A stretch of DNA of 38,191 bases, from the IMG/VR virus record IMGVR_UViG_3300031576_000176, positions 1 to 38,191 of that record, one strand, 5' to 3'. Shown piece after piece: positions 1,494-24,100 of the stretch (within the stretch, counting starts at the first letter, position 1; each line of letters starts with the position of its first letter). Below the pieces are notes generated by a model. It was not told the DNA's origin, did not search any database, and worked only from the letters and a program-made list of their open reading frames with translations. The position numbers and the translations under genes are program-made. The stretch comes from a virus.

Positions 1494-1669
1494 GCGGATA
1501 CCATTTCAAAAAACTCATAAAACGTCTCTAGCTTTATATCATAGGACACAGAAGGATTGTCAGAGGCCCGTATCAGGATGCGCAGCGTAGATAAGTTCAT
1601 TTGCTCAACAACCCACAAGGACTTATCCTCTAGGCTTCTATACGTCTGACCCACATGAACAGGAATCAT
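1490..1669 (-). CDS. Small hypothetical protein, SH3-like beta pattern
   Basis: The start at 1669 (ATGA overlap with the upstream stop) is preferred to an ATG at 1738 that would intrude far into the preceding gene. The 59-residue product (MIPVHVGQTYRSLEDKSLW) reads like a five-strand small beta-barrel, as in many phage proteins that start VGQ.Y. This is a fold guess only. Confidence 0.7.
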   Translation of the reverse strand: MIPVHVGQTYRSLEDKSLWVVEQMNLSTLRILIRASDNPSVSYDIKLETFYEFFEMVSA

Positions 1670-1866
1670 TGGTGTCTGATTTCTTCCTCTCTCCAGTATT
1701 CCCACTCGTCGTAAAACTCGTCTCGCCATTGCCGCCACTTCTTTAGTTTTTCCTTATCCAGGCGGATCTCTTTCGGTGGTTTCATCTTCTTCTCTATGGG
1801 ATACAGAGAGTTATTAGGAGGATCTACCCAATCCTGGCTATGGGGCTGCTCTACTATGTCTTTCAT
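1666..1866 (-). CDS. Trp-rich helical small protein, paralogue of the gene at 11324-11569
   Basis: The 66-residue product has a Pro-rich N-terminus and a charged C-terminal helix with W44-R45 and an EWEYW motif at 54-58. The pattern L-x2-E-x4-WR-x8-EWEYW occurs with identical spacing in the product of 11324-11569, so the two are probably duplicated. The start overlaps the end of the primase gene by 29 bases. The stop sits in an ATGA junction. The role is unknown; the aromatic helix could form a protein-protein interface. Confidence 0.75.
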   Translation of the reverse strand: MKDIVEQPHSQDWVDPPNNSLYPIEKKMKPPKEIRLDKEKLKKWRQWRDEFYDEWEYWREEEIRHQ

Positions 1867-2749
1867 GGGTCACTTTTATAGAGTTATAAATGGACACGAC
1901 TTCATCCCATTCAAGAGGAGGATTGTTCATGGAGTTTCTATATCGAAGCAGCTCTAGAATACGGGTTTCGGGCACACTCTTCCACACCAGCCGACCTACG
2001 TAACGGGCCATATCGTTGTTTCTCGTGCCCTCACTACTGGCTAGGATTGGCGTCATCCTCTTTGAGCGTCTTTTCAATATATTGCTTGATCCTCTCAAGC
2101 GAGGCTCCTGGGTCAGTATTAAAGCTAGCAAGGAAGGTGTGCAAATCTTTAAGAGGAAAGACCGTGTTAATGTTGTAGGTAGGCCCACTGAGTTCAATGG
2201 AGAGCCCAGAGGCCCCAAAAAGAAGGGATAAGCGATGGTCGCTGATGCCGGTGGAAAAGAGGTTGGGCACTCCAGAGGAGTAAGTATATGTCGGTTGAAT
2301 AGGTAGGGCAGGCTGTTGGGCAGGTGCGTTGGCGGACATACTATAAACCCTCCATCGGCTCGAATATCGATCCCTGGTCTAAGCCCAGCAGAGCTAGGTA
2401 TGTGTTGTACATGGTCGGGGTATTGAAAATAAAAATGGTATCCACCGCCCCCGGTTCTAACGGTCGCTTCCTCACTCCGAAGGCCGAGTTCAGCAAGCGA
2501 TGCTGTTCCCCCGTGACGGGGGTCACAATCCAAGACCACAAGTCCAGAGGCTCGTCCTGTGATAAGACCAATCCCACTAACCTTGTCGTCTTCATGGAAC
2601 CATTCCCATAAATTCTCTAATGAAGGGATGGAGTCCTGAAGGCCCTTCCACGGTATCAAAGGCCTTTTTGACCCAGGAGCAACGGGAACAGGCACGAGAT
2701 TCAATGAATGGTATATCTCGGATATCTTCAGCCAGTTGAACGAATTCAT
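1838..2749 (-). CDS. Prim-pol type DNA primase (bifunctional primase/polymerase)
   Basis: This 303-residue protein probably makes primers for replication. The N-terminus has the typical prim-pol opening (PVPVAPGSKRPLIPWKGLQ, residues 20-38). The metal-binding pair is D74/D76 in VVLDCDP, followed by TGGGGYHFYF (H105) and GIDIRADGGFIVCPP (126-140). The C-terminal residues 236-295 match a primase C-terminal (PriCT-1) domain: SSEGTRNNDMARYVG, then PPLEWDEVVSI. Between these domains, residues about 155-235 are of odd composition, rich in Pro/Leu/Ser, and a second convincing frame (2034-2339) lies here. That is either genuine dual coding or two compensating frameshifts. No good ribosome site precedes the ATG. 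Its 5' end overlaps another gene by 158 bases. Confidence 0.85.
   Translation of the reverse strand: MNSFNWLKISEIYHSLNLVPVPVAPGSKRPLIPWKGLQDSIPSLENLWEWFHEDDKVSGIGLITGRASGLVVLDCDPRHGGTASLAELGLRSEEATVRTGGGGYHFYFQYPDHVQHIPSSAGLRPGIDIRADGGFIVCPPTHLPNSLPYLFNRHILTPLECPTSFPPASATIAYPFFLGPLGSPLNSVGLPTTLTRSFLLKICTPSLLALILTQEPRLRGSSNILKRRSKRMTPILASSEGTRNNDMARYVGRLVWKSVPETRILELLRYRNSMNNPPLEWDEVVSIYNSIKVTHERHSRAAP
2034..2339 (-). CDS. Nested 101-residue protein inside the primase gene
   Basis: This ORF lies wholly inside the primase gene in another frame. GGAGGG precedes its ATG by about 8 bases. The product is protein-like throughout: a Pro/Gln-rich N-terminus, beta-type centre (LSLLFGASGLSIELSG) and amphipathic C-terminal helix (SLERIKQYIEKTLKEDD). 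The primase frame in the same stretch looks like a poor linker. It may be an overprinted gene, or the true middle of the primase if two indels are present. The function is unknown. Confidence 0.6.
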   Translation of the reverse strand: MSANAPAQQPALPIQPTYTYSSGVPNLFSTGISDHRLSLLFGASGLSIELSGPTYNINTVFPLKDLHTFLASFNTDPGASLERIKQYIEKTLKEDDANPSQ

Positions 2750-2891
2750 AATATTTGTAAAAGGACTGGTTATCCGCCATAAAGCGACGGGAATCGTACC
2801 AATACCAAACGGAACCCTCGTCCTCGTATTCCACTAGGACAGGATGCCCCATAGGGCTTACGGCACAGACTTTGAATTCTTTTCTAACCAT
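2592..2891 (-). CDS. 99-residue hypothetical protein overlapping the primase start
   Basis: Residues 1-55 look like a compact beta-rich domain (VCAVSPMGHPVLVEYEDEG, VWYWYDSRRF). The C-terminal half is read in a different frame from the primase N-terminus. It overlaps the upstream Nmad1-like gene by 34 bases. A CSRC motif at about 69-72 may be incidental. No family was recognised, and the long 3' overlap leaves the true C-terminus uncertain. Confidence 0.6.
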   Translation of the reverse strand: MVRKEFKVCAVSPMGHPVLVEYEDEGSVWYWYDSRRFMADNQSFYKYYEFVQLAEDIRDIPFIESRACSRCSWVKKAFDTVEGPSGLHPFIREFMGMVP

Positions 2892-3184
2892 AGATGATAC
2901 AGGATAGCCATATAATTTCGTATATCCATGATGGTGTCTTTAACACTCTCCTCTACGCGAGCCTCTTGACGCCGTACCATAAGATTACCGAGACGACACA
3001 GCTTATCAGAGACCCTAACAAGGACCCCTTGTTCCGCGCTGGCTACACCAAAGGCTTCGCACGCCTTGAGATTCTTATTGCAATCATCCTCCGTGGCGTA
3101 GTCAGATGCCTTACGTTCCATGATAGCCCGCTCTTCTTCACACAGCCCCTCTAAAATCTTCAGTCGTTCGCTGATCTTTGCCAT
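2858..3184 (-). CDS. Nucleotide modification associated domain 1 (DUF1599-like) protein
   Basis: The start at 3184 follows GGAG at a spacing of 6-7; an ATG at 3196 is the alternative. The 108-residue product matches the DUF1599/Nmad1 pattern: K25ASDYA, DDCNKN, GVLVRVSDKLCRL (53-65), and ESVKDTIMDIRNY (79-91). These families were named from gene neighbourhoods linked to modified nucleotides in phages. It neighbours DUF6899- and DUF4406-like genes, so a role in nucleotide pools or base modification is plausible but inferred. Confidence 0.75.
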   Translation of the reverse strand: MAKISERLKILEGLCEEERAIMERKASDYATEDDCNKNLKACEAFGVASAEQGVLVRVSDKLCRLGNLMVRRQEARVEESVKDTIMDIRNYMAILYHLWLEKNSKSVP

Positions 3185-3422
3185 AGATATCTCCATTTGC
3201 TCTTATCTTGATGTCCTCGTACGGGCCCACAAGACGCCTATAGAACTCTAACTTTGCGCATTCCAAGGCCCCAATAACGGCATTATAGTCCGTGTAGTTA
3301 TGCCCGTATTGGTCTAAAAAGTTCAAGCATTGTGTGGTAATAGCATAATTTAGCTCGCCCGGACTCATGGGCCTGTGTCCTCCATCAACGGCTTTTCTTT
3401 GTTCTTTGGTTATGTAGGGCAT
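3138..3422 (-). CDS. DUF6899-like conserved phage protein
   Basis: This 94-residue product matches a small protein common in phages. It opens MPYITKEQRKAVDGG, continues ELNYAITTQCLNFLDQYG, then DYNAVIGALECAKLEFYRR (67-73 carry the ALECAKLE core) and closes VGPYEDIKIRANGDIY. The recognisable domain ends near residue 79. The last 15 residues are read in the overlap with the next gene. The biochemical role is unknown. It overlaps the DUF4406-like gene by 38 bases. Confidence 0.85.
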   Translation of the reverse strand: MPYITKEQRKAVDGGHRPMSPGELNYAITTQCLNFLDQYGHNYTDYNAVIGALECAKLEFYRRLVGPYEDIKIRANGDIYGKDQRTTEDFRGAV

Positions 3423-3747
3423 AGTGCCTCCAAAGACTCTTATAGTTACAAGTCACAAACTTCCCTAGTTTCTTGGCTAGCCTGCACTCCCTGTCGGCTC
3501 CTTTAGACTCACCTCTTAGTCTAAAGACAGCATCGCACTTGTCCAACCATGCTTCGTCGTACTGAAGATTCTCTTCCCATGTCATAGGATGGACCAAGTT
3601 CCACAATTCATTTACGTGGGGAACAAACGGAAAGAAGCCAAGTTGTCGTAGCTTATGACCCGCATCAATGGCTTTCCTGACATTTTGTGTAAGGTTACCA
3701 CTAGAGGTAATAGGCCCTGCTACGTAGACGTAGATATTTTTCTTCAT
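3385..3747 (-). CDS. DUF4406 / nucleoside deoxyribosyltransferase-like protein
   Basis: This is a 120-residue protein of the nucleoside 2-deoxyribosyltransferase-like superfamily. Visible motifs are YVAGPITSSG (8-17), a middle NELW, AWLDKCDAVFRL (66-77) and SKGADRECRLAKKLGK (81-96), where E87 takes the place of the catalytic glutamate. Family members act on, or bind, nucleosides and nucleotides. The ATG overlaps the upstream TGA (ATGA). With Nmad1 and DUF6899 next door it probably serves nucleotide metabolism in infected cells. Confidence 0.8.
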   Translation of the reverse strand: MKKNIYVYVAGPITSSGNLTQNVRKAIDAGHKLRQLGFFPFVPHVNELWNLVHPMTWEENLQYDEAWLDKCDAVFRLRGESKGADRECRLAKKLGKFVTCNYKSLWRHYALHNQRTKKSR

Positions 3748-3872
3748 CGGAGGGCCATGTCACAGGCCTTCAAGATTATTCGTTTTGAAACGCGCACAGG
3801 CGTACGGTCATCACAACGAGAGCTAGCTGCTTTATATCTGAACCTTGGATGGTCGTTAATAAACTCCAGCAA
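3744..3872 (-). CDS. Small basic protein, probable TTG start, frame open further upstream
   Basis: AGGAGG at 3878-3883 sits five bases before a TTG, giving a 42-residue product (LLEFINDHPRFRYKAASSRC...). The same frame stays open and protein-like for 19 more codons, back to the TGA that ends the preceding 44-residue gene. The two could therefore be halves of one gene split by an in-frame stop. The function is unknown. Confidence 0.5.
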   Translation of the reverse strand: MLEFINDHPRFRYKAASSRCDDRTPVRVSKRIILKACDMALR

Positions 3873-3929
3873 CAGAACCTCCTGGTCGCGCGTTAATTGG
3901 GGCGTCCAGCCTGCCGCGTAAGTAATCGG

Positions 3930-4064
3930 TCAACCCTTTGTGCCATGTCTGTTAAACCACCGATCAAAAATAACACCATGTTTAGTAACGCCTTTCTTCA
4001 CTAACCGTACTCGATTTTTTCCCCAACGACGAAAATCAGCAGCCAATCGTTGGACGATAGTCAT
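3930..4064 (-). CDS. 44-residue basic hypothetical protein
   Basis: GGAG lies 7-8 bases upstream of the ATG, just after the RusA-like stop. The product (MTIVQRLAADFRRWGKNRV...) is strongly basic and ends in TGA. The downstream frame continues in phase for another 61 codons (see 3744-3872), so this may be the N-terminal half of an interrupted gene. Confidence 0.55.
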   Translation of the reverse strand: MTIVQRLAADFRRWGKNRVRLVKKGVTKHGVIFDRWFNRHGTKG

Positions 4065-4068
4065 ACAC

Positions 4069-4452
4069 TCACTCCTTTTTATGGTAGACGACAGAAATCT
4101 CTACGCCTTCATCTCGTTTCGTACCTACGTATATCCGATCCATTCCGTAAGATCCGGCCCACTCCTTATCGTCCAAACCCAGCGCATCCTTAGACAGCGC
4201 ATCCTGAACGGAATGAGTCAGGCTGTCCAGGTCCGCGTGATCGAGCGAGGCAAATTTATAAATAATACCGGAGACCACATACTCGTTCTTCTCGGGTTCC
4301 CGTCCACCGGCTTTTAGAAAAGCCTTTGCGATGCGTCTCCTCCATCTCTTCAGATCATCGGGCACGTAAGGTCGTCCTCTATACCCCCTTCTATAGGGAG
4401 CGTAGCGAGGAACTGGCCCATGAACGCTAAAGACAACCTCTGTCTGCCCCAC
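4069..4452 (-). CDS. RusA-like Holliday junction resolvase
   Basis: This 127-residue protein has the RusA length and core motif D71HADLDSLTHSVQDAL followed by GLDDKEW. By comparison with E. coli RusA, D74, D76 and one of D94/D95 take the places of the catalytic aspartates D70, D72 and D91. The lysine K76 of the E. coli enzyme is replaced by H80. RusA enzymes cut four-way DNA junctions and would resolve replication or packaging intermediates. The start is a GTG with GAGGGA about 6 bases upstream. The gene overlaps the preceding membrane-protein ORF by 103 bases. Confidence 0.85.
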   Translation of the reverse strand: MGQTEVVFSVHGPVPRYAPYRRGYRGRPYVPDDLKRWRRRIAKAFLKAGGREPEKNEYVVSGIIYKFASLDHADLDSLTHSVQDALSKDALGLDDKEWAGSYGMDRIYVGTKRDEGVEISVVYHKKE

Positions 4453-4571
4453 GGATATTCCCTCTCTATTCTCTTAGCATGATGCCACAAGGACACTAAC
4501 AAGGAAGCCAACAAGAAACCAAGTAATGCCCACAAAAACACCAGGAAGGCAACCCGAAGAACGGTTTTCAT
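4350..4571 (-). CDS. Small membrane protein, one N-terminal membrane segment
   Basis: Residues 4-29 form a single hydrophobic segment (VLRVAFLVFLWALLGFLLAS) followed by a basic region. The last third overlaps the RusA-like gene in another frame, so the C-terminal end may be incidental. The ATG lies three bases after the preceding TGA. No strong ribosome site is seen; expression may be coupled to the exonuclease gene. Confidence 0.55.
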   Translation of the reverse strand: MKTVLRVAFLVFLWALLGFLLASLLVSLWHHAKRIEREYPWGRQRLSLAFMGQFLATLPIEGGIEDDLTCPMI

Positions 4572-4574
4572 GGC

Positions 4575-5291
4575 TCATCGAATAATAACCCCCTTCACCA
4601 TCTCTGCTTTTCCTATAGACCACCCACCACACTTTTGACACTGGTAACGCTGGACTCTGTGTGTTCTCCTGATGGACATACCTTCCTTTCGCAGCTTCCC
4701 CGCCGTCCCACAAATAGGGCACCCTGGTCTCGTAGGATCGGCGGCAGTCAGGTGGACGTTAGGATGTGTTGAAGAAAGAGGCCGAATCCGTTCATAGGCC
4801 TGCTCGAGAACCTTCACATCCTGCCGACAATGGTTCATGACGTATCTCAAGGAGGACATTCTTCCCGCCGATGCGTCGACCCAATGCTGGCCTTTAATCA
4901 TCGTCTTTTCGTCCAGGCCCAGAAACGCGGACACGGATGCCAGCCTATTGCTGTGCAGTTTTAGTTTCTCCCTGGCAATACGCCATCCGTCGACGTGCGG
5001 AATGGGTGGAAGAGGCTTATACCTGTAATGAATAAGCCTGCTGTTAAGAAAAGGAACGTCGAATCTAGAACCATACCATGTAACCCAAAGATCCGCCGTA
5101 CTCAGCACGCTAGATAAATGAGCTACAAGGGCTTTATCGTTAGTCGGTCTCTCTTCGTAGCCACGAAAGTCCGCAAGGCTAGCAATCTCTATCTTTGGTT
5201 TTCCGTAGACTTTCCATCCTCCACACAGGATGTACCCAAAATTACTGTTGAGGTTGCTTGTTTCCAGATCCCAGCACATGATTTTTGCCAT
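4575..5291 (-). CDS. DEDD-family 3'-5' exonuclease (YprB/RNase H-like) with zinc ribbon
   Basis: This 238-residue protein has exonuclease motif I WDLET (D8, E10), motif II YGSRFDVPFL (D78) and a motif III-like HCRQDV (H154, D158), as in YprB/RNase_H_2 proteins. A C-terminal zinc ribbon uses CPIC (191-194) and CQKC (218-221). It probably trims nucleic acid 3' ends during replication or repair. The ATG overlaps the previous gene's stop by one base. The fused ribbon suggests nucleic-acid binding. Confidence 0.8.
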   Translation of the reverse strand: MAKIMCWDLETSNLNSNFGYILCGGWKVYGKPKIEIASLADFRGYEERPTNDKALVAHLSSVLSTADLWVTWYGSRFDVPFLNSRLIHYRYKPLPPIPHVDGWRIAREKLKLHSNRLASVSAFLGLDEKTMIKGQHWVDASAGRMSSLRYVMNHCRQDVKVLEQAYERIRPLSSTHPNVHLTAADPTRPGCPICGTAGKLRKEGMSIRRTHRVQRYQCQKCGGWSIGKAEMVKGVIIR

Positions 5292-5719
5292 TATAGCTCC
5301 TTTACCCCAAACATACGCAATCGTTCGATATAAGGGATGAGCACAATATCTCCCGTCTCAAACGATCTTACGGCTTCTTCGTGCGCCGTGGCCGCATCGT
5401 CCTCTGTCGAGGACAGCCTTCTGTAAAGGTCAGTTCCGACCACGTCCCGCATAAGATTAGTGCCCTCGTACGTTAGCCTGTCTAAATCTTTGACTTCTAG
5501 GTCCGATACCTTTGATATCGGTTTAGCCGCATAGATAACGGTTTCATAATTGTATCGCGTGGTGTCGAAGTCATAACGGGGGTGTGGCGTAGGCCCAAAG
5601 TTGATTCGGCTGATGATATTGGTAACCACTTCATAACTAGTCTTCCTGAGTGTCGTGACCAAGGTTCTTGAGAAGTGAATTTCGTTCATGGGTAAGGCGG
5701 TTATCTTTAATGTCGTCAT
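5291..5719 (-). CDS. 142-residue hypothetical protein
   Basis: The product is soluble, mixed alpha/beta, with an acidic C-terminal half (SSTEDDAATAHEEAVRSFE) and no metal-binding Cys. It overlaps the upstream zinc-ribbon gene by 83 bases if the first ATG is used, or 53 bases if codon 11 is used. Neither has a clear ribosome site. It sits between replication genes, but no family was recognised. Confidence 0.65.
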   Translation of the reverse strand: MTTLKITALPMNEIHFSRTLVTTLRKTSYEVVTNIISRINFGPTPHPRYDFDTTRYNYETVIYAAKPISKVSDLEVKDLDRLTYEGTNLMRDVVGTDLYRRLSSTEDDAATAHEEAVRSFETGDIVLIPYIERLRMFGVKEL

Positions 5720-5906
5720 TGGGTTTATCCGAAAGTTCAGAAGAGTATTCCTTGTTCAGTCTAACAGACATGACACAAGAGGACGAGTAGCGATAGCCAC
5801 AGGACGGGCAGGATATCTCGACAGTTTGGTGCAGCGTATTGTTGCTCTTGAATTCCTTGCTGCTCACGCTGGCCTTAGCCCCGCATTGGACGCACTTACT
5901 GGTCAT
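5637..5906 (-). CDS. Small zinc-ribbon protein
   Basis: The 89-residue product has CVQC (5-8) and CPSC (33-36) spaced as in a classical zinc ribbon, followed by a hydrophilic, probably disordered tail. It overlaps the previous gene by 11 bases. A nucleic-acid or protein-binding adaptor role is typical of such proteins, but there is no specific evidence here. Confidence 0.7.
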   Translation of the reverse strand: MTSKCVQCGAKASVSSKEFKSNNTLHQTVEISCPSCGYRYSSSCVMSVRLNKEYSSELSDKPNDDIKDNRLTHERNSLLKNLGHDTQED

Positions 5907-6156
5907 GGATCACGCTCCTAATCTCAGAAAAGGAAAGGGCCTTCGGATTCATCACGTCCACCGCCGCAAGCATGGCCCATCTCTCACTAGGGGAGGATTC
6001 CTTGAACCTACTGATCCACTCACCCGACACCCCCTGAATCCAAAGATCCATAAGAACACTCAATGACCCCTTCCAAGAAGGATGGCAGGCACACCCACAC
6101 AAAGTATCGGCACAATACCCATGATTTCCTGCGCCGCATGGGGTCGATCTATTCAT
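5896..6156 (-). CDS. Small protein with CxxGxHxxCxxxxCxCxCH N-terminus
   Basis: The N-terminus CGAGNHGYCADTLCGCACH (7-25) is a compact Cys/His cluster, probably a zinc site. It is followed by a 60-residue helical region (SVLMDLWIQGVSGEWISRF). The ATG overlaps the helicase TGA (ATGA), so it is translated with the helicase. The function is unknown. Confidence 0.75.
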   Translation of the reverse strand: MNRSTPCGAGNHGYCADTLCGCACHPSWKGSLSVLMDLWIQGVSGEWISRFKESSPSERWAMLAAVDVMNPKALSFSEIRSVIHDQ

Positions 6157-9166: not shown

Positions 9167-10261
9167 CTAGAAAAGGGCGATCTTTCGACCAAAGGGCGGA
9201 TCACCGGCGTCCTTGGGAACAATCCAAATTACATTATGCGATGTAGACGGAAAGGTCCCTTCAAGGTCGGTGAAGTAAAGGATTCTCCTGCATCCCATAC
9301 TCTCCGCTTTCGTAATTGCAGGTATAAAACTGGTTCCCCCTCCTCCATACAACGTACCATCAAATTCTTTCATCGGCTGAACCTTATGAACCGCACTATC
9401 TGCATGAATGACGTAACCCACAACGTCATTAGATCGGATAAGACCCGCCACGGTGTCAACAAACTGCTTGGCTAAGGGACCTTTAGTACTCCCGCTGGTA
9501 TCGATACAAATAGCAATCTTCGCCTTCTCCCGTTGACGGGAAGGCAGATAGACCCCGTGACTATACAGCCGCCTGTTGGGTTGTCTCCAAGTAGTCTCTC
9601 GTTCCGACTTATCTAGAATTAGGGACGCCAGTAACGCGCTATTCTCTCGTTTAGTTATCTGATAGCCCATTTCGCTGTCTCCTGGTTTAAGTCCGTGCGC
9701 CCTTGTTGCTTTGTTTTCTTTTTGAATGGCTTCCTTAACAAAGGATTTCTCAGTTTCGTCTAAGGACGCCACTAGTTTTTTAATAGCTTCTTTGTAGGAT
9801 TCTGTCTGAGCAACGGACCATTGGCTATGGTCGTCTAAGGTGGTTTGATTGCCTGTATTTTTGTCTTGCATTAGCCGTTCATACAGCGTCTCTGTAGAGT
9901 AGGGAGCATAGTCCTCATTGTACAAAACCCCTAAATCCTTCGGAAGCCTAAAACCAAATTCTTTGACCAGTGTTAAATTAACATTATAATCAGCGGCCAC
10001 ATTCCAATAAAAGGGGTCCCGCCCCCGACACCGTTCAATGTGGCTTGAAATAATGTGCTCACATTCATGGGCAATAATAAAAGCCCTATCCTCATCCGAT
10101 GCTAGGCTTTCGAGGAAAGCCTTGTTATACATCATCCCTCCGGGACCCACCCCAGCCGTAGGACACCGGTTGTCTTGACGCGGAGGAAAAACGGCTAAGA
10201 TTTTACTGAATACCGTACTCTTGTGAAGAAGGATCTTCTCTATGTTATCCCAGTCCATCAC
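9167..10261 (-). CDS. DUF2201-type zincin plus VWA-like protein, partner of MoxR ATPase
   Basis: This 364-residue protein combines two domains. The N-terminal part has a zincin motif HECEH (65-69), and the following ADYNVN (D91) is a candidate third ligand. The C-terminal part is a VWA-like domain with MIDAS motifs DTSGS (254-258), GGGGTSF (T310) and TDLEG (D332). This is the architecture of DUF2201 family proteins, which are found next to MoxR-type ATPases. Here the ATPase gene overlaps it by 4 bases. The pair probably works as a chaperone or remodelling unit; whether the zincin cuts protein is unknown. A GTG (10261) or the next ATG (10258) could start it. Confidence 0.88.
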   Translation of the reverse strand: MMDWDNIEKILLHKSTVFSKILAVFPPRQDNRCPTAGVGPGGMMYNKAFLESLASDEDRAFIIAHECEHIISSHIERCRGRDPFYWNVAADYNVNLTLVKEFGFRLPKDLGVLYNEDYAPYSTETLYERLMQDKNTGNQTTLDDHSQWSVAQTESYKEAIKKLVASLDETEKSFVKEAIQKENKATRAHGLKPGDSEMGYQITKRENSALLASLILDKSERETTWRQPNRRLYSHGVYLPSRQREKAKIAICIDTSGSTKGPLAKQFVDTVAGLIRSNDVVGYVIHADSAVHKVQPMKEFDGTLYGGGGTSFIPAITKAESMGCRRILYFTDLEGTFPSTSHNVIWIVPKDAGDPPFGRKIALF

Positions 10262-11310
10262 TTGTCTGTCCCTTTTTCCAAAGATAGAATCAAGTCCTTA
10301 CAAAGTCTAATCTCGCTTTGCCAAGTTACGTCTTTAGGAACCCCGGCAAAGGGATCACGGTCATTGAATACCTCAAAAGCAATCGCAATCTTTTCAGGAG
10401 TTAGCGACCTTGTGTAGCGAAGGATTTTTGTTGCGATTTGTGGGGACGGCTCTTCCTTCAAGGCCGCACAAAGCAATTCATAGACCGGACGGATATCCTC
10501 AGTAGTCAAGGGGGCTAGGCGAACCCCCTTCAGGATATCCAGTACCTTTTCGGTATACACCGTGTCGTTAGTCAAAAACTTCACATAGTCGTCTGCGACC
10601 TTTCCGATACATCCGAAGAGCGCGTCACGGAGCAACGGGTCCGTTTTAGGAATGGCGGCACAAATCTTCTTAACTCGTTCCCATGACCTAGCCGTTGCAA
10701 AACAGTACTCGTCTACGGACCCCCGAAAATTAGCAGGATTCATTTTAAGGAATTTTACCGTAGCATCCGACTTGTCTTTGATGTAGTCGCTATAGTCTTG
10801 AATGGTGTTGCTCACAAACAAAATCTGAAACCTGTTGCGAAGAGCTGCCGGGAGTTCATCAATATCGCATTTATCTTCGGCCCTGTTAGTAGCCGCCACG
10901 ATAAGCCAATCCGGTTTAATCTTATGGTCCCCAATACACCGATCCAGAATTAACTGATAACAACAAGCCCTGACGAGACGGTCCCCTAGCGTAACCTCAT
11001 CCAAGAAGAGGATACCCCGTTTAGGATGGTTTGTATTGGTCGTAAAGGGGAGCAGGTTCGGCGGGTTAAAGGCGGTATGTCCGTTGACTACGGTAGGAAT
11101 ACCCCGGAAGTCTACCGAGTCTAGTTGAGAGATCCTCAAGTCAATGAGCCCAACGGGTTCCTGGTAGTGCGCCTCCAAGTCATTTCTGACTTGACGCACG
11201 ATAGAGGACTTTCCTTCACCAATAGGACCTACCAGGAGGATAGGTATCTCTTGATGAAGCCCCGCCATATAATGCTTCACCAGATACTGGCCACAATCGG
11301 GAATTCGCAT
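10258..11310 (-). CDS. MoxR-type AAA+ ATPase
   Basis: The 350-residue protein has Walker A GPIGEGKS (28-35), Walker B GILFLDEV (D104, E105), sensor 1 WLIVAATNR (135-143) and a probable arginine finger in ELPAALRNRF (R158/R160). This is the MoxR layout, in which a ring ATPase acts with a VWA-domain partner to remodel a metal or protein complex. The partner gene follows immediately with overlapping ends. The target in the infected cell is not known. Confidence 0.9.
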   Translation of the reverse strand: MRIPDCGQYLVKHYMAGLHQEIPILLVGPIGEGKSSIVRQVRNDLEAHYQEPVGLIDLRISQLDSVDFRGIPTVVNGHTAFNPPNLLPFTTNTNHPKRGILFLDEVTLGDRLVRACCYQLILDRCIGDHKIKPDWLIVAATNRAEDKCDIDELPAALRNRFQILFVSNTIQDYSDYIKDKSDATVKFLKMNPANFRGSVDEYCFATARSWERVKKICAAIPKTDPLLRDALFGCIGKVADDYVKFLTNDTVYTEKVLDILKGVRLAPLTTEDIRPVYELLCAALKEEPSPQIATKILRYTRSLTPEKIAIAFEVFNDRDPFAGVPKDVTWQSEIRLCKDLILSLEKGTDK

Positions 11311-11907: not shown

Positions 11908-13650
11908 TCATGGGCTTGGCCAAGGTGTCTTAGTTGCCCAAGTAACTCCGGTTTGTGTGTCTACTGTTATAGGCAGACTAAAATCCTTTTTATTTTCCAT
12001 TAGTTGTTTTATAATAGGAATATAAAGGGGTAAACATAAATTAGGAAACTCAAGAATTAGTTCATCATGGACGGTATTCACTAGCGTAGGTCTAATTGTA
12101 GTAAGTTGGTTGGTCCACTCATATACTCTTACTAGGCCTTGTTTCATTATCTCCGCTGCCGTTCCTTGAATCAAGTAGTTACAGGCCTTATAAGACTCTG
12201 TTACCGGACAACGGTATTCTTTGCCAAATACATCGACTACAAAACCCTTACTTCTTATTTCATTTTGAATAGAATCTAAAAAGGTTTTTACAGAAGGATA
12301 GATCTTATTGTATAGTCCTATTAAGCGTTCTCCAGACTGCATATCACATATTAGGTTATTATCCGCGAACAATTTAGTTGTTTGTTCCTCTATCTTTCGT
12401 GGACCAGCCCCATAAATCATAGCGAAGTTAATTGTTTTAGCAATTTGCCTAAGAGCTTTTTGATTAGACGTATCTTTATAGGTTATCGGAAACAACCTTT
12501 TTGCCGTCAAATCATGACAATCTTCTCCATTAATAATAGCATTAATTAAAGAATCTGTTTTAGAGTAATGCGCAAACAGTCTCATCTCAATTTGGGAATA
12601 ATCAAAGAAAACAAAAATATGGTTTGGCGGTGCCATGATGCTCCCTTTAACGGATATTCCCTTTCGTGGTAGATTTTGAAAGTTAGGTTCAGCGCAAGAT
12701 AAACGGCCAGTGGTCGTACCCGCTTGTCGAAAGGAAGGGTGAATCCTATTACTAGAGTCCATAGAATCGGCCATAGGCTTCAAGTAAGTCTCAAGTAGTT
12801 TATGGGTTGTCCTAGCGCCAAGGATTAGATCGGTTATAGGGTTCGGATAGTCTTTGATCGATTCACTATCAAAACTAGGACTTCCCTTCTTAGTTCGATG
12901 TTTAATAGGAAACCCTAGCGTAGTATGATATAACTCTCTTAATTGCTTATTAGAACGCCAGTTAAAGTCTTTATTATTAGTTAGCGTAATGATTGCATTG
13001 TCTAGTCTTTGTAATGCCTGCGTGCTTTCGGTGATTGTAACTTTTAAGTGGACCTTGTCAATTCGTATACCGAGTCGTTCCATGTCTATTAATGCAGGGA
13101 TTAATCGTAATTCGGTATCTAGACAAGGGTGATTCTCTACCATCGGCCATATGTGCTTATATAAGGCTAAGGTATGCCGTAGATCATCAACTAGGTAGGG
13201 CTCTAGTATGGTAACAGGAACATCAGCATATGTCAAGGCCCTACCTTGCTTCTTAGACTCTACCTTGAGATAATCCTTTAAGGTAGTGTTGGTGCTCGTA
13301 TTTGCACTAAGAAGGGTTCTAGCTAAATCCTTTAGCTTGTACGAAAGTAGGGTTGGGTTCCACAGATGGGTTAGGATCATGGTATCGTGCAGCGTGCCTT
13401 GAACCCCTACACCCATCTTAGCTAAATGGTGTACGTCGAATTTGATATTATGACCTACTTTAATCGTGTCCGGGTTTCCTAGACGTAAGCACAAGGAAAC
13501 ATAATCAAGATCAAGATTATCCCATGTCTTAGGTTTGTAGAGGGTGTAATCTCCATTGGGTTCCATAAGACCTACCATAAAGGGGGAGGAACCCTTCCAG
13601 GGGTTAAGGCCGGTGGTTTCACAGTCTATAACTAAGAAGTTATTGTTCAT
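11908..13650 (-). CDS. Family A DNA polymerase with 3'-5' exonuclease (T7-type)
   Basis: This is the phage replicative polymerase, 580 residues. The exonuclease domain has IDCETTGL (D9, E11), HNIKFD (D72) and YLVDD (Y152, D156), giving proofreading. The polymerase domain has TTTGRLS (312-318), motif A FFDYSQIEMR (D350), the O-helix R401...K405...F409...Y413 and motif C VHDE (527-530). The residue matching E. coli F762 is Phe. No 5' nuclease domain is present. It is compact compared with T7 gp5 (about 700 residues). The upstream clamp-like gene overlaps it in an ATGA junction. Codon use is visibly AT-richer than in the capsid genes. Confidence 0.95.
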   Translation of the reverse strand: MNNNFLVIDCETTGLNPWKGSSPFMVGLMEPNGDYTLYKPKTWDNLDLDYVSLCLRLGNPDTIKVGHNIKFDVHHLAKMGVGVQGTLHDTMILTHLWNPTLLSYKLKDLARTLLSANTSTNTTLKDYLKVESKKQGRALTYADVPVTILEPYLVDDLRHTLALYKHIWPMVENHPCLDTELRLIPALIDMERLGIRIDKVHLKVTITESTQALQRLDNAIITLTNNKDFNWRSNKQLRELYHTTLGFPIKHRTKKGSPSFDSESIKDYPNPITDLILGARTTHKLLETYLKPMADSMDSSNRIHPSFRQAGTTTGRLSCAEPNFQNLPRKGISVKGSIMAPPNHIFVFFDYSQIEMRLFAHYSKTDSLINAIINGEDCHDLTAKRLFPITYKDTSNQKALRQIAKTINFAMIYGAGPRKIEEQTTKLFADNNLICDMQSGERLIGLYNKIYPSVKTFLDSIQNEIRSKGFVVDVFGKEYRCPVTESYKACNYLIQGTAAEIMKQGLVRVYEWTNQLTTIRPTLVNTVHDELILEFPNLCLPLYIPIIKQLMENKKDFSLPITVDTQTGVTWATKTPWPSP

Positions 13651-21881: not shown

Positions 21882-22625
21882 ATGGCAGGCGACATCGAAA
21901 ACTTTGAAGCGGAGTTGGAACCTACGGTGGAAACGGGAGAGCCTTCCTCGCCGGAAGCAACCTCATCCCCGTCCCCCGAGGCGACCCCTTCTGCTGCGAC
22001 GTTTATCGAAGCCGGGGGCCGTAAGTTCAAGGATGTGACCGAGTTGGCGAAGTCTTACGATGGTCTGCTGAAAGACTATACGAAGACCAAGCAGAACTTT
22101 GGTCGTGCCCAGGAGTGGTTGGATTTTGACACGTATCTTCGTCAGAATCCCGATCTTCGGGCGTCCTTGAAGGGTCAGATCGATTCGTATGTGGGAAGAC
22201 GTGGTGCGGGACAATCGCAGAATAAAGCGGAAGCTGCGACAGGCCTTCCTTCCCAGGTGGCGGAAAGAATAGAGGCTCTGGAGTCTCAGCTTGAGGACTT
22301 TACGTTGAACCGGGAGATTGAGACTCTTCAAAGCAAGTACAGCCTAGACGCCACGGCACTCGATAAGGTATTGCGTACGGCCCTGAAGTATAAAGGCCTC
22401 CCCCTGGATGCGGCGTATCAGATCGAAATGGGACAAAAGAATCTTGTTGATGCCAAGGCTACGGCGGAAAAAGAGGCGCAAGCCCGCCTTGCCCAGAAAC
22501 AAAACGCCAATGTAGGTTCTTCCTCTGTTCCTAATGTTACGCCGTCAGGAAAAAACCCCTCTCAGATGAATGAGGTAGAGTATCGCTCGGCTATCATGAA
22601 AGAGCTAGAGCAATACGGAGTATAG
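21882..22625 (+). CDS. Putative capsid scaffolding protein
   Basis: AGGAGG lies just before the ATG. The 247-residue product has an acidic Pro/Ser/Glu-rich N-terminus, a coiled-coil-prone centre (AERIEALESQLEDFTLNREI) and a Lys/Gln-rich end. It sits immediately before the major capsid gene, the classic scaffold position. No protease motif is seen. Confidence 0.75.
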   Translation: MAGDIENFEAELEPTVETGEPSSPEATSSPSPEATPSAATFIEAGGRKFKDVTELAKSYDGLLKDYTKTKQNFGRAQEWLDFDTYLRQNPDLRASLKGQIDSYVGRRGAGQSQNKAEAATGLPSQVAERIEALESQLEDFTLNREIETLQSKYSLDATALDKVLRTALKYKGLPLDAAYQIEMGQKNLVDAKATAEKEAQARLAQKQNANVGSSSVPNVTPSGKNPSQMNEVEYRSAIMKELEQYGV

Positions 22626-22636
22626 GATAAAATAAA

Positions 22637-23587
22637 ATGGCACTTTCGGTTTCTCAGATTGCTTCGATCACCCACCGACTCATTCTTCCTAAGATGGTTG
22701 AGAACATCTTTGGAAGTAATCCTGTCTTGTTCCGGTTGAAGGACAAGGGGATCAAGTATAGCGGTGGACGAGTGATTCAACAGCCGTTGGTATACAAGAA
22801 GACCGATGCCGTGGGTTCGTTTGAAGGCGCGGAAATCTTGTCCACCACGTTGAACGATAACCTTACCAATGCCGAGTTTGCATGGAGGCAGTATTACGGC
22901 ACCATCGGTATTACGGGTCGTGATGAGTTGCTGAATAGCGGTAAGGAAGGCATTCTTAATCTCTTGGAAGCCAAGCGTCTTGTCACGGAACTTACGCTGA
23001 TGGACACGATGGGGACGGATCTCCAGGGGTCCAATTCGAGCGGGAAGGCTCTGGACGGGCTTGGTTCGGTCTTGAGCGACACGACCACGTACGCGGGCAT
23101 CGCTACGGCGGATTTCTCGGACTGGAAAGCGAAGGTCCGAACGCTGTCTGTGGCTGGGACTTTGACGCTGATCGAAATGCAGAAGGCCTACGGCGCGACG
23201 GTGGTCGGATCGGATCATCCGTCTGTGATCGTGACGAGGCAGAGCGTGTTCGACAAGCTGTGGACGCTGTATCAGCCCGATCAAAGGTTTACCGATTCGA
23301 AGATGGCATCGGCTGGATTTTCGACGCTCATGTTCAACGGTATTCCTATCGTGGTTGACTCTCACGTCACGGGAACCGATGGCGGAAATCAGGACAACTG
23401 GATTCAGTTTCTGAACGAGCGTTACCTCTGGCTGGCAACGCACTCGGACAGCAACTTTAAGGTTGTGGCTATTCCTCCGCTGAAGGACCAGGATGTAAAG
23501 ATCGTCCGTATCCTGTGGGCCGGTAATCTGCTTTGCTCCAATCGTAGGATGCAGGGCGTCATCAAGACAGTCGATCCCAACCTGTAA
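22637..23587 (+). CDS. Major capsid protein (HK97-type fold expected)
   Basis: The 316-residue protein forms the shell. Its N-terminus (SVSQIASITHRLILPKMVEN...) and the GRVIQQPLVYKKTDAV, FAWRQYYGTIGITGRDELLN and LTLMDTMGTDL segments match phage capsid proteins of podo- and siphovirus type. It lies between scaffold and decoration genes. GC-rich codons are prominent, as expected for a highly expressed gene. Confidence 0.88.
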   Translation: MALSVSQIASITHRLILPKMVENIFGSNPVLFRLKDKGIKYSGGRVIQQPLVYKKTDAVGSFEGAEILSTTLNDNLTNAEFAWRQYYGTIGITGRDELLNSGKEGILNLLEAKRLVTELTLMDTMGTDLQGSNSSGKALDGLGSVLSDTTTYAGIATADFSDWKAKVRTLSVAGTLTLIEMQKAYGATVVGSDHPSVIVTRQSVFDKLWTLYQPDQRFTDSKMASAGFSTLMFNGIPIVVDSHVTGTDGGNQDNWIQFLNERYLWLATHSDSNFKVVAIPPLKDQDVKIVRILWAGNLLCSNRRMQGVIKTVDPNL

Positions 23588-23602
23588 AGAAAGGAACGTA
23601 GA

Positions 23603-24100
23603 ATGCCTGAAGTCAAAAACACAAACGTTCCTGCTGTTTGGACCGACGCGGTTGCTGACACAGGAACGACCCTGCTTTATTCGCTGGGTATGGTTCGACA
23701 CGAGGACGGGAAGATTTATCGCTACCGCCAGTTTGATAACGGCTCGGGAGATGTGGCCGCGGTGAGCGGAAATCTGGCCTACTTCATCGATAATGGGCTA
23801 AAGGTCACGATGGACGTGTCGGACACGGATCGTAACCTTGTCGCAGGTGTCTTTATCTCGGTTCCTGCGGACGCGGCTTATTGTTGGGTGCAGACAGGGG
23901 GTCGTCATGCTACGGTGAAAACCAACGGCGATGACGACGTGGCTAAGGGCGATGCCATCATCGCCTCGGCTGCGGGTGACGGTACGGCGGACTCTACGGC
24001 TCAGGACACGGCCCCGACTAATCATGTGGTGGGCTGGGCTCTTGCGGCTGACGTCGACGCTAACAATACCGTGGACACCTATCTGACGCTGGATGCGTAG
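23603..24100 (+). CDS. Putative capsid decoration or stabilising protein (DUF2190-like)
   Basis: The 165-residue product is beta-rich, Gly/Ala/Thr-rich, with no Cys except one. The pattern VTMDVSDTDRNLVAGVFIS, then KGDAIIASAAGDG and VVGWALAADVD, resembles DUF2190-like decoration proteins that follow capsid genes. A strong terminator lies just downstream. Confidence 0.65.
   Translation: MPEVKNTNVPAVWTDAVADTGTTLLYSLGMVRHEDGKIYRYRQFDNGSGDVAAVSGNLAYFIDNGLKVTMDVSDTDRNLVAGVFISVPADAAYCWVQTGGRHATVKTNGDDDVAKGDAIIASAAGDGTADSTAQDTAPTNHVVGWALAADVDANNTVDTYLTLDA

Follow-up and report, generated by a model that had tools for sequence, protein, structure and literature searches.

Fully nested phage genes are best known from lysis cassettes and from very small genomes, and overprinting is usually pictured as the rise of a small gene within a large one. 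In the Rz/Rz1 spanins of phage lambda and its relatives, a short gene is embedded, in a shifted frame, where the outer gene encodes a tolerant part of its protein (PMC6139136). Overprinted genes can be dated by their codon usage, the frame that resembles the rest of the genome being taken as the ancestral one (Pavesi et al. 2013, PMC3744397). The locus described here resembles Rz/Rz1 by architecture only, in that a short phage gene would lie wholly inside another in a shifted frame. The spanins, however, are lysis proteins shown by experiment to work as a pair, whereas the outer gene in our case encodes a replication primase and both products are predicted from sequence. As in overprinted viral genes generally, two frames share one stretch, one of them genome-like in codon usage and the other not. 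Dated in this way, however, the nested frame would be the older of the two and the outer primase linker would be derived, the opposite of the usual case. The outer protein has the same domains and catalytic residues as the Prim-Pol/PriCT-1 primases ORF904 of pRN1, NrS-1 and the replication proteins of Streptococcus phages. It differs from them by a distance of about 100 instead of 52-58 residues between its PP and ExxRN motifs and by a complete coding ORF in another frame, with none at that place in the relatives examined. Gene nesting is a known viral trick; the linker of a primase is an unusual place for it.

The DNA that we analyzed, referred to as the window, comprises the 38,191 bases of an uncultured-virus record (IMG/VR). 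It belongs to a virus of bacteria or archaea and carries a tailed-phage gene set with terminase, portal, DnaB helicase and family A polymerase. The outer ORF (1838..2749, complement strand) encodes 303 residues, of which 21-162 match Pfam Prim-Pol (PF09250, E 3e-25) and 240-291 match PriCT_1 (PF08708, E 1.5e-6). Both matches lie in one ORF and above the Pfam gathering cut-offs, which identifies a Prim-Pol/PriCT-1 primase. The catalytic acids and histidine D74, D76 and H105 are invariant in alignments of 14 and 19 sequences, and the catalytic D128 is invariant in an alignment of eight. When the AF2 model of the Prim-Pol part was compared with solved structures, VIA-align placed primase residues 3-218 onto ORF904 of pRN1 (1rni) with Z 12.8, and the NrS-1 primase-polymerase gave Z 7.5. 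The PriCT-1 domain (residues 239-303; 1841..2035, complement strand) follows the nested stop. PriCT-1 domains are alpha-helical, bind DNA and are found alongside primase domains (PMC5862659); here, residues 238-303 of the model align with the DNA-binding domain of ColE2 Rep (Z 6.4).

A first, sequence-only reading of this DNA had noticed a 101-codon frame with a good ribosome site wholly inside the prim-pol gene, and our analysis confirms it in detail. The nested ORF (2339..2034, complement strand) starts with ATG, encodes 101 residues and is closed by two consecutive stops (TAG TGA). It is fully contained in the primase ORF 2749..1838 on the same strand, with a frame shift of -1/+2. Its start sits inside the conserved primase motif GGFIVCPP and its end falls short of EGTRN, the PriCT-1 motif, by one to two codons, so that it coincides almost exactly with the non-conserved part that separates GGFIV, the last core motif, from EGTRN. 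The Shine-Dalgarno-like GGAGGG (2348..2353, complement strand) pairs with the anti-Shine-Dalgarno sequence at -9.8 kcal/mol, which ranks in the top three of 40 starts in the window; the primase start at 2749, in comparison, has no Shine-Dalgarno match. The same six bases encode the conserved Gly133-Gly134 of the primase and are partly forced by them (GGA accounts for 31% of Gly codons), so that the ribosome site is not an independent line of evidence for the nested start. A programmed frameshift in place of this start was rejected, as no X XXY YYZ sequence lies near either edge and the sole such site of the primase gene is at codon 178.

The nested frame had been said to read as a proper protein, and with codon statistics trained on 20 larger genes of the window it indeed has the coding score of a true gene. 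It reaches +0.24 bits/codon, compared with +0.21 +/- 0.10 for true-gene windows of 101 codons, while the primase frame over the same stretch falls to -0.29 bits/codon, compared with -0.24 +/- 0.10 for off-frame windows. At this length, off-frame windows never rise above -0.04 and true-gene windows never drop below -0.02. The nested score lies 4.7 SD over the off-frame mean and exceeds all 128 off-frame windows of its length; the primase frame at codons 138-238 has a lower score than any of the 64 true-gene windows of that length. The two components of the score, amino-acid composition and synonymous choice, agree for this stretch. In the 20 control genes, none of the 45 alternative-frame open runs of at least 80 codons outscores its host frame. 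A blind change-point scan, which ignores start and stop codons, finds primase codon 136 (133-139 within 3 bits) as the point of entry into the nested frame and codon 236 (232-238) as the point of return, with 52 bits in total. These change-points coincide with the nested ATG at primase codon 137/138 and the nested stop at 238/239. The primase frame had been called odd between residues 150 and 236; the oddness is real, but it sets in earlier than at residue 150, the codon statistics placing its onset at 133-139. Given the primase protein, a nested frame open over 101 codons has a probability of p = 0.004-0.02, depending on the null. The converse, a primase frame open given the nested protein, is modestly unlikely (p 0.015-0.15). 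Both the coding statistics and the position of the frame switch at its start and stop give good support to a real nested gene in the linker region of the primase.

We also asked whether the primase frame is real through the overlap. At the double-coded edge, primase residues 138-151 (CPPTHLPNSLPYLF, the last Prim-Pol strand; 2297..2338, complement strand) lie over nested residues 1-14. P140 and Y149 are invariant in alignments with 13 and 18 relatives, and inside the overlap the family features P139, P140, Y149 and the last Prim-Pol strand are all retained in the primase frame. Scored against a profile built from 17 relatives, the primase sequence that follows GGFIV reaches 28 bits. This is more than expected when the nested protein is kept (P 0.005) or the nested codons are permuted (P < 0.0005); with the first nested codons fixed, the two nulls give P 0.075 and 0.0005, respectively. 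The motif is nevertheless weaker than in the relatives, 16 of which score 42-75 bits and the remaining one 25. The nested ORF avoids those Leu, Val and Ile codons that end in TA or TG and can give rise to a stop in the primase frame (4 of 20 vs 708 of 1611, p 0.024). The AF2 model of the primase, built with 13 relatives, is confident through strand 148-151 and very unsure at 155-192 and 218-235. In between it shows a helix at 205-213, which aligns with the end of solved Prim-Pol folds and may be favoured by the alignment fed to the predictor. This linker helix, TPSLLALIL, compares to the AP-WLL-LL helix of the family with P 0.10-0.16 by score and 0.02-0.04 when position is included, which is suggestive only of a remnant of the family helix. 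The outer frame in the overlap is open, keeps its motif residues and avoids stop-forming codons, yet it lacks coding composition. We regard the evidence that the primase frame is real through the overlap as moderate.

The same observations bear on the possibility that two compensating indels, introduced by sequencing or assembly errors, hide one single protein, in which the nested residues would form an inserted linker domain between Prim-Pol and PriCT-1. Such errors would produce just the order of coding signals that we see, from frame 1 to the nested frame and back to frame 1, and they would fit the weak primase-frame motif in the overlap and the source of the DNA, an uncultured-virus record of IMG/VR. 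The merged protein, however, would drop P139, P140 and Y149, which are conserved in relatives, and the nested frame offers no Prim-Pol tail motif in their place: continuing into it gives 21.5 bits, less than the 24.1 bits of the head alone. The outer frame open over 101 codons, the strong Shine-Dalgarno sequence with ATG at one change-point and the double stop at the other would all have to be coincidences. In addition, 1991-2420 contains a single homopolymer of at least five bases, an A5 at 2217, which lies within the nested gene and away from its edges. Because the primase residues in the overlap keep family features, true double coding is favoured over two indels, and we consider the latter improbable.

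We give about the same low standing to a second alternative, in which the insertion of a real nested gene has left the primase split or decaying and the primase frame runs open through the insert by luck. The middle of the primase frame without coding character would agree with this, as would the degraded Prim-Pol tail motif and the p of up to 0.15 with which the primase frame would be open given the nested protein. A separate PriCT-1 piece could begin at the in-frame ATGs 2056 and 2011, but their ribosome sites are poor (-0.2 and -3.0 kcal/mol). Furthermore, the flanking Prim-Pol and PriCT-1 parts are intact, in one frame and with the catalytic residues present; stop-forming codons are avoided; and the last Prim-Pol strand and a helix can be modelled inside the overlap. 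That the nested ORF is a chance open frame with the primase as sole product is very improbable. In its favour, open runs of at least 114 codons appear in 6% of synonymous reshufflings of the primase in either shifted frame (0.9% in the nested frame), and the Shine-Dalgarno sequence shares its bases with the conserved Gly-Gly codons. Against it, the nested frame scores like a true gene where the primase frame does not, and the frame switch meets the nested start and stop.

The explanation that we prefer, and hold to be probable, is a genuine nested gene, with one mRNA read in two frames to give the primase and a separate 101-residue protein. Ribosomes starting at 2749 would make the 303-residue primase with its catalytic Prim-Pol part, a long unstructured linker and the DNA-binding PriCT-1 domain. 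Other ribosomes would begin at the internal GGAGGG...ATG (2339) and make the 101-residue protein, which would end just before PriCT-1. We infer that both products are made. The primase linker would then be a shadow of the nested gene, its sequence dictated by the latter provided that no stop arises. Against this explanation count the modest improbability of an open primase frame given the nested protein, the weakened Prim-Pol tail motif, the part that Gly133-Gly134 play in shaping the Shine-Dalgarno sequence, and the negative homologue searches and low-confidence fold of the nested protein described below. If true, the arrangement would mean that a core enzyme can have its interdomain linker dictated by a second gene, and a nested gene of this kind would escape gene callers that keep one ORF per stretch.

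The linker proper consists of primase residues 152-238 (2036..2296, complement strand) over nested residues 15-101 and is largely disordered in the model. Since the distance from PP to ExxRN is about 100 residues here and 52-58 in relatives, some 45 residues appear to have been gained in this lineage. The best relative of the primase in viral contigs (L015) shares 42% identity with it over the Prim-Pol part. The frame that matches the nested ORF closes 9-62 codons after the motif in 22 relatives, with the exception of L030 (189 codons). An ATG beside the motif is present among them in L022 only, where the frame closes after 19 codons. We also considered Cys138 as a special helper of the nested ATG and rejected the idea, because three other VCPP primases, found by pattern search, have no ATG at that place and their frame closes within 10-12 codons. 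Searches with the primase and other proteins of the virus as queries returned no close relative of the virus. Relatives that conserve the primase frame but have stops in the nested one had been named beforehand as evidence against the nested gene. This pattern is what we find, but it has no refuting force here, as relatives with at most 42% identity only show that the nesting, judged from these comparisons, is not ancestral to the primase family.

As to which frame is older, overprinting on the linker of the primase had been proposed as a compact way to add a function. The part of this proposal that stands is the nested gene itself, with its coding statistics and the frame switch at start and stop; a new gene born on an old linker is not what the data suggest. 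The nested frame is the genome-like one, the opposite of what codon-usage dating (PMC3744397) expects of an inner gene that arose de novo, with the caveat that codon usage can adapt after the event, and the linker is about 45 residues longer than in relatives. Together, the genome-like nested frame and the longer linker make it more likely that the primase linker took in an existing gene, or the greater part of one, than that a new gene was born there. The overlap would have arisen by linker lengthening in this lineage, through insertion or recombination. In its full form, the proposal would be that an established gene with normal coding character was captured in a replicative primase, which uses the shadow frame as its interdomain linker, and that one mRNA yields the primase and a small partner protein. 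We put this forward tentatively, as a possibility that falls somewhat short of an even chance.

Homologues of the nested protein were not found in Pfam, PHROGs, NCBIfam, phages or viral contigs, nor among PDB sequences, where the best matches were unrelated chains (E 0.05). Plasmids gave four weak matches only, within amidohydrolases (E 0.5), and no paralogue is present in the window or in the fetched loci. A match in the Peptoclostridium locus L033 was rejected as chance: it falls in a segment of a 936-aa penicillin-binding-protein-like protein, with an exact seed PNLFSTGI and about 30% identity outside of it. The first 25 residues of the nested protein are rich in Pro, Ala and Gln. A single-sequence model of low confidence (pLDDT 57) shows these residues as disordered, together with four strands and two helices. 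Foldseek of this model listed MoSub1, a PC4-like ssDNA-binding protein, and Pur-alpha, at a non-significant E of about 1. A shape loosely like the PC4/Pur-alpha ssDNA-binding proteins would be an unlikely, though conceivable, reading of the model. Because the protein would be made from the primase message, we guess that its most likely role is that of an accessory replication protein.

Several further observations were made in the window. Upstream of the primase, a 99-aa ORF (2592..2891, complement strand) shares its frame with the nested ORF; it extends 158 nt past the primase start and covers the first 53 primase codons. The coding score in this overlap is slightly positive for the 99-aa ORF and negative for the primase frame. 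The primase may therefore be double-coded at both ends, and its start, without a ribosome site, may depend on the 99-aa ORF. The surrounding region 1666-6156 (complement strand) is a run of small ORFs, many with head-to-tail overlaps of tens of bases. A 3'-5' exonuclease-like protein of the polymerase exonuclease subunit family with a possible zinc ribbon (4575-5291, complement strand) is separate from the family A polymerase at 11908-13650. Elsewhere, a 316-aa gene (22637-23587, forward strand) is open over its full length on the opposite strand, in a 379-aa antisense ORF (22562-23701, complement strand) with a codon score of 0.15, which is positive but lower than the 0.31 of the sense frame. 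Finally, at 9167-11310 (complement strand) an ATPase adjoins a VWA/metallopeptidase-like DUF2201 protein, a pair that is also found in three IMG/VR contigs (L034-L036).
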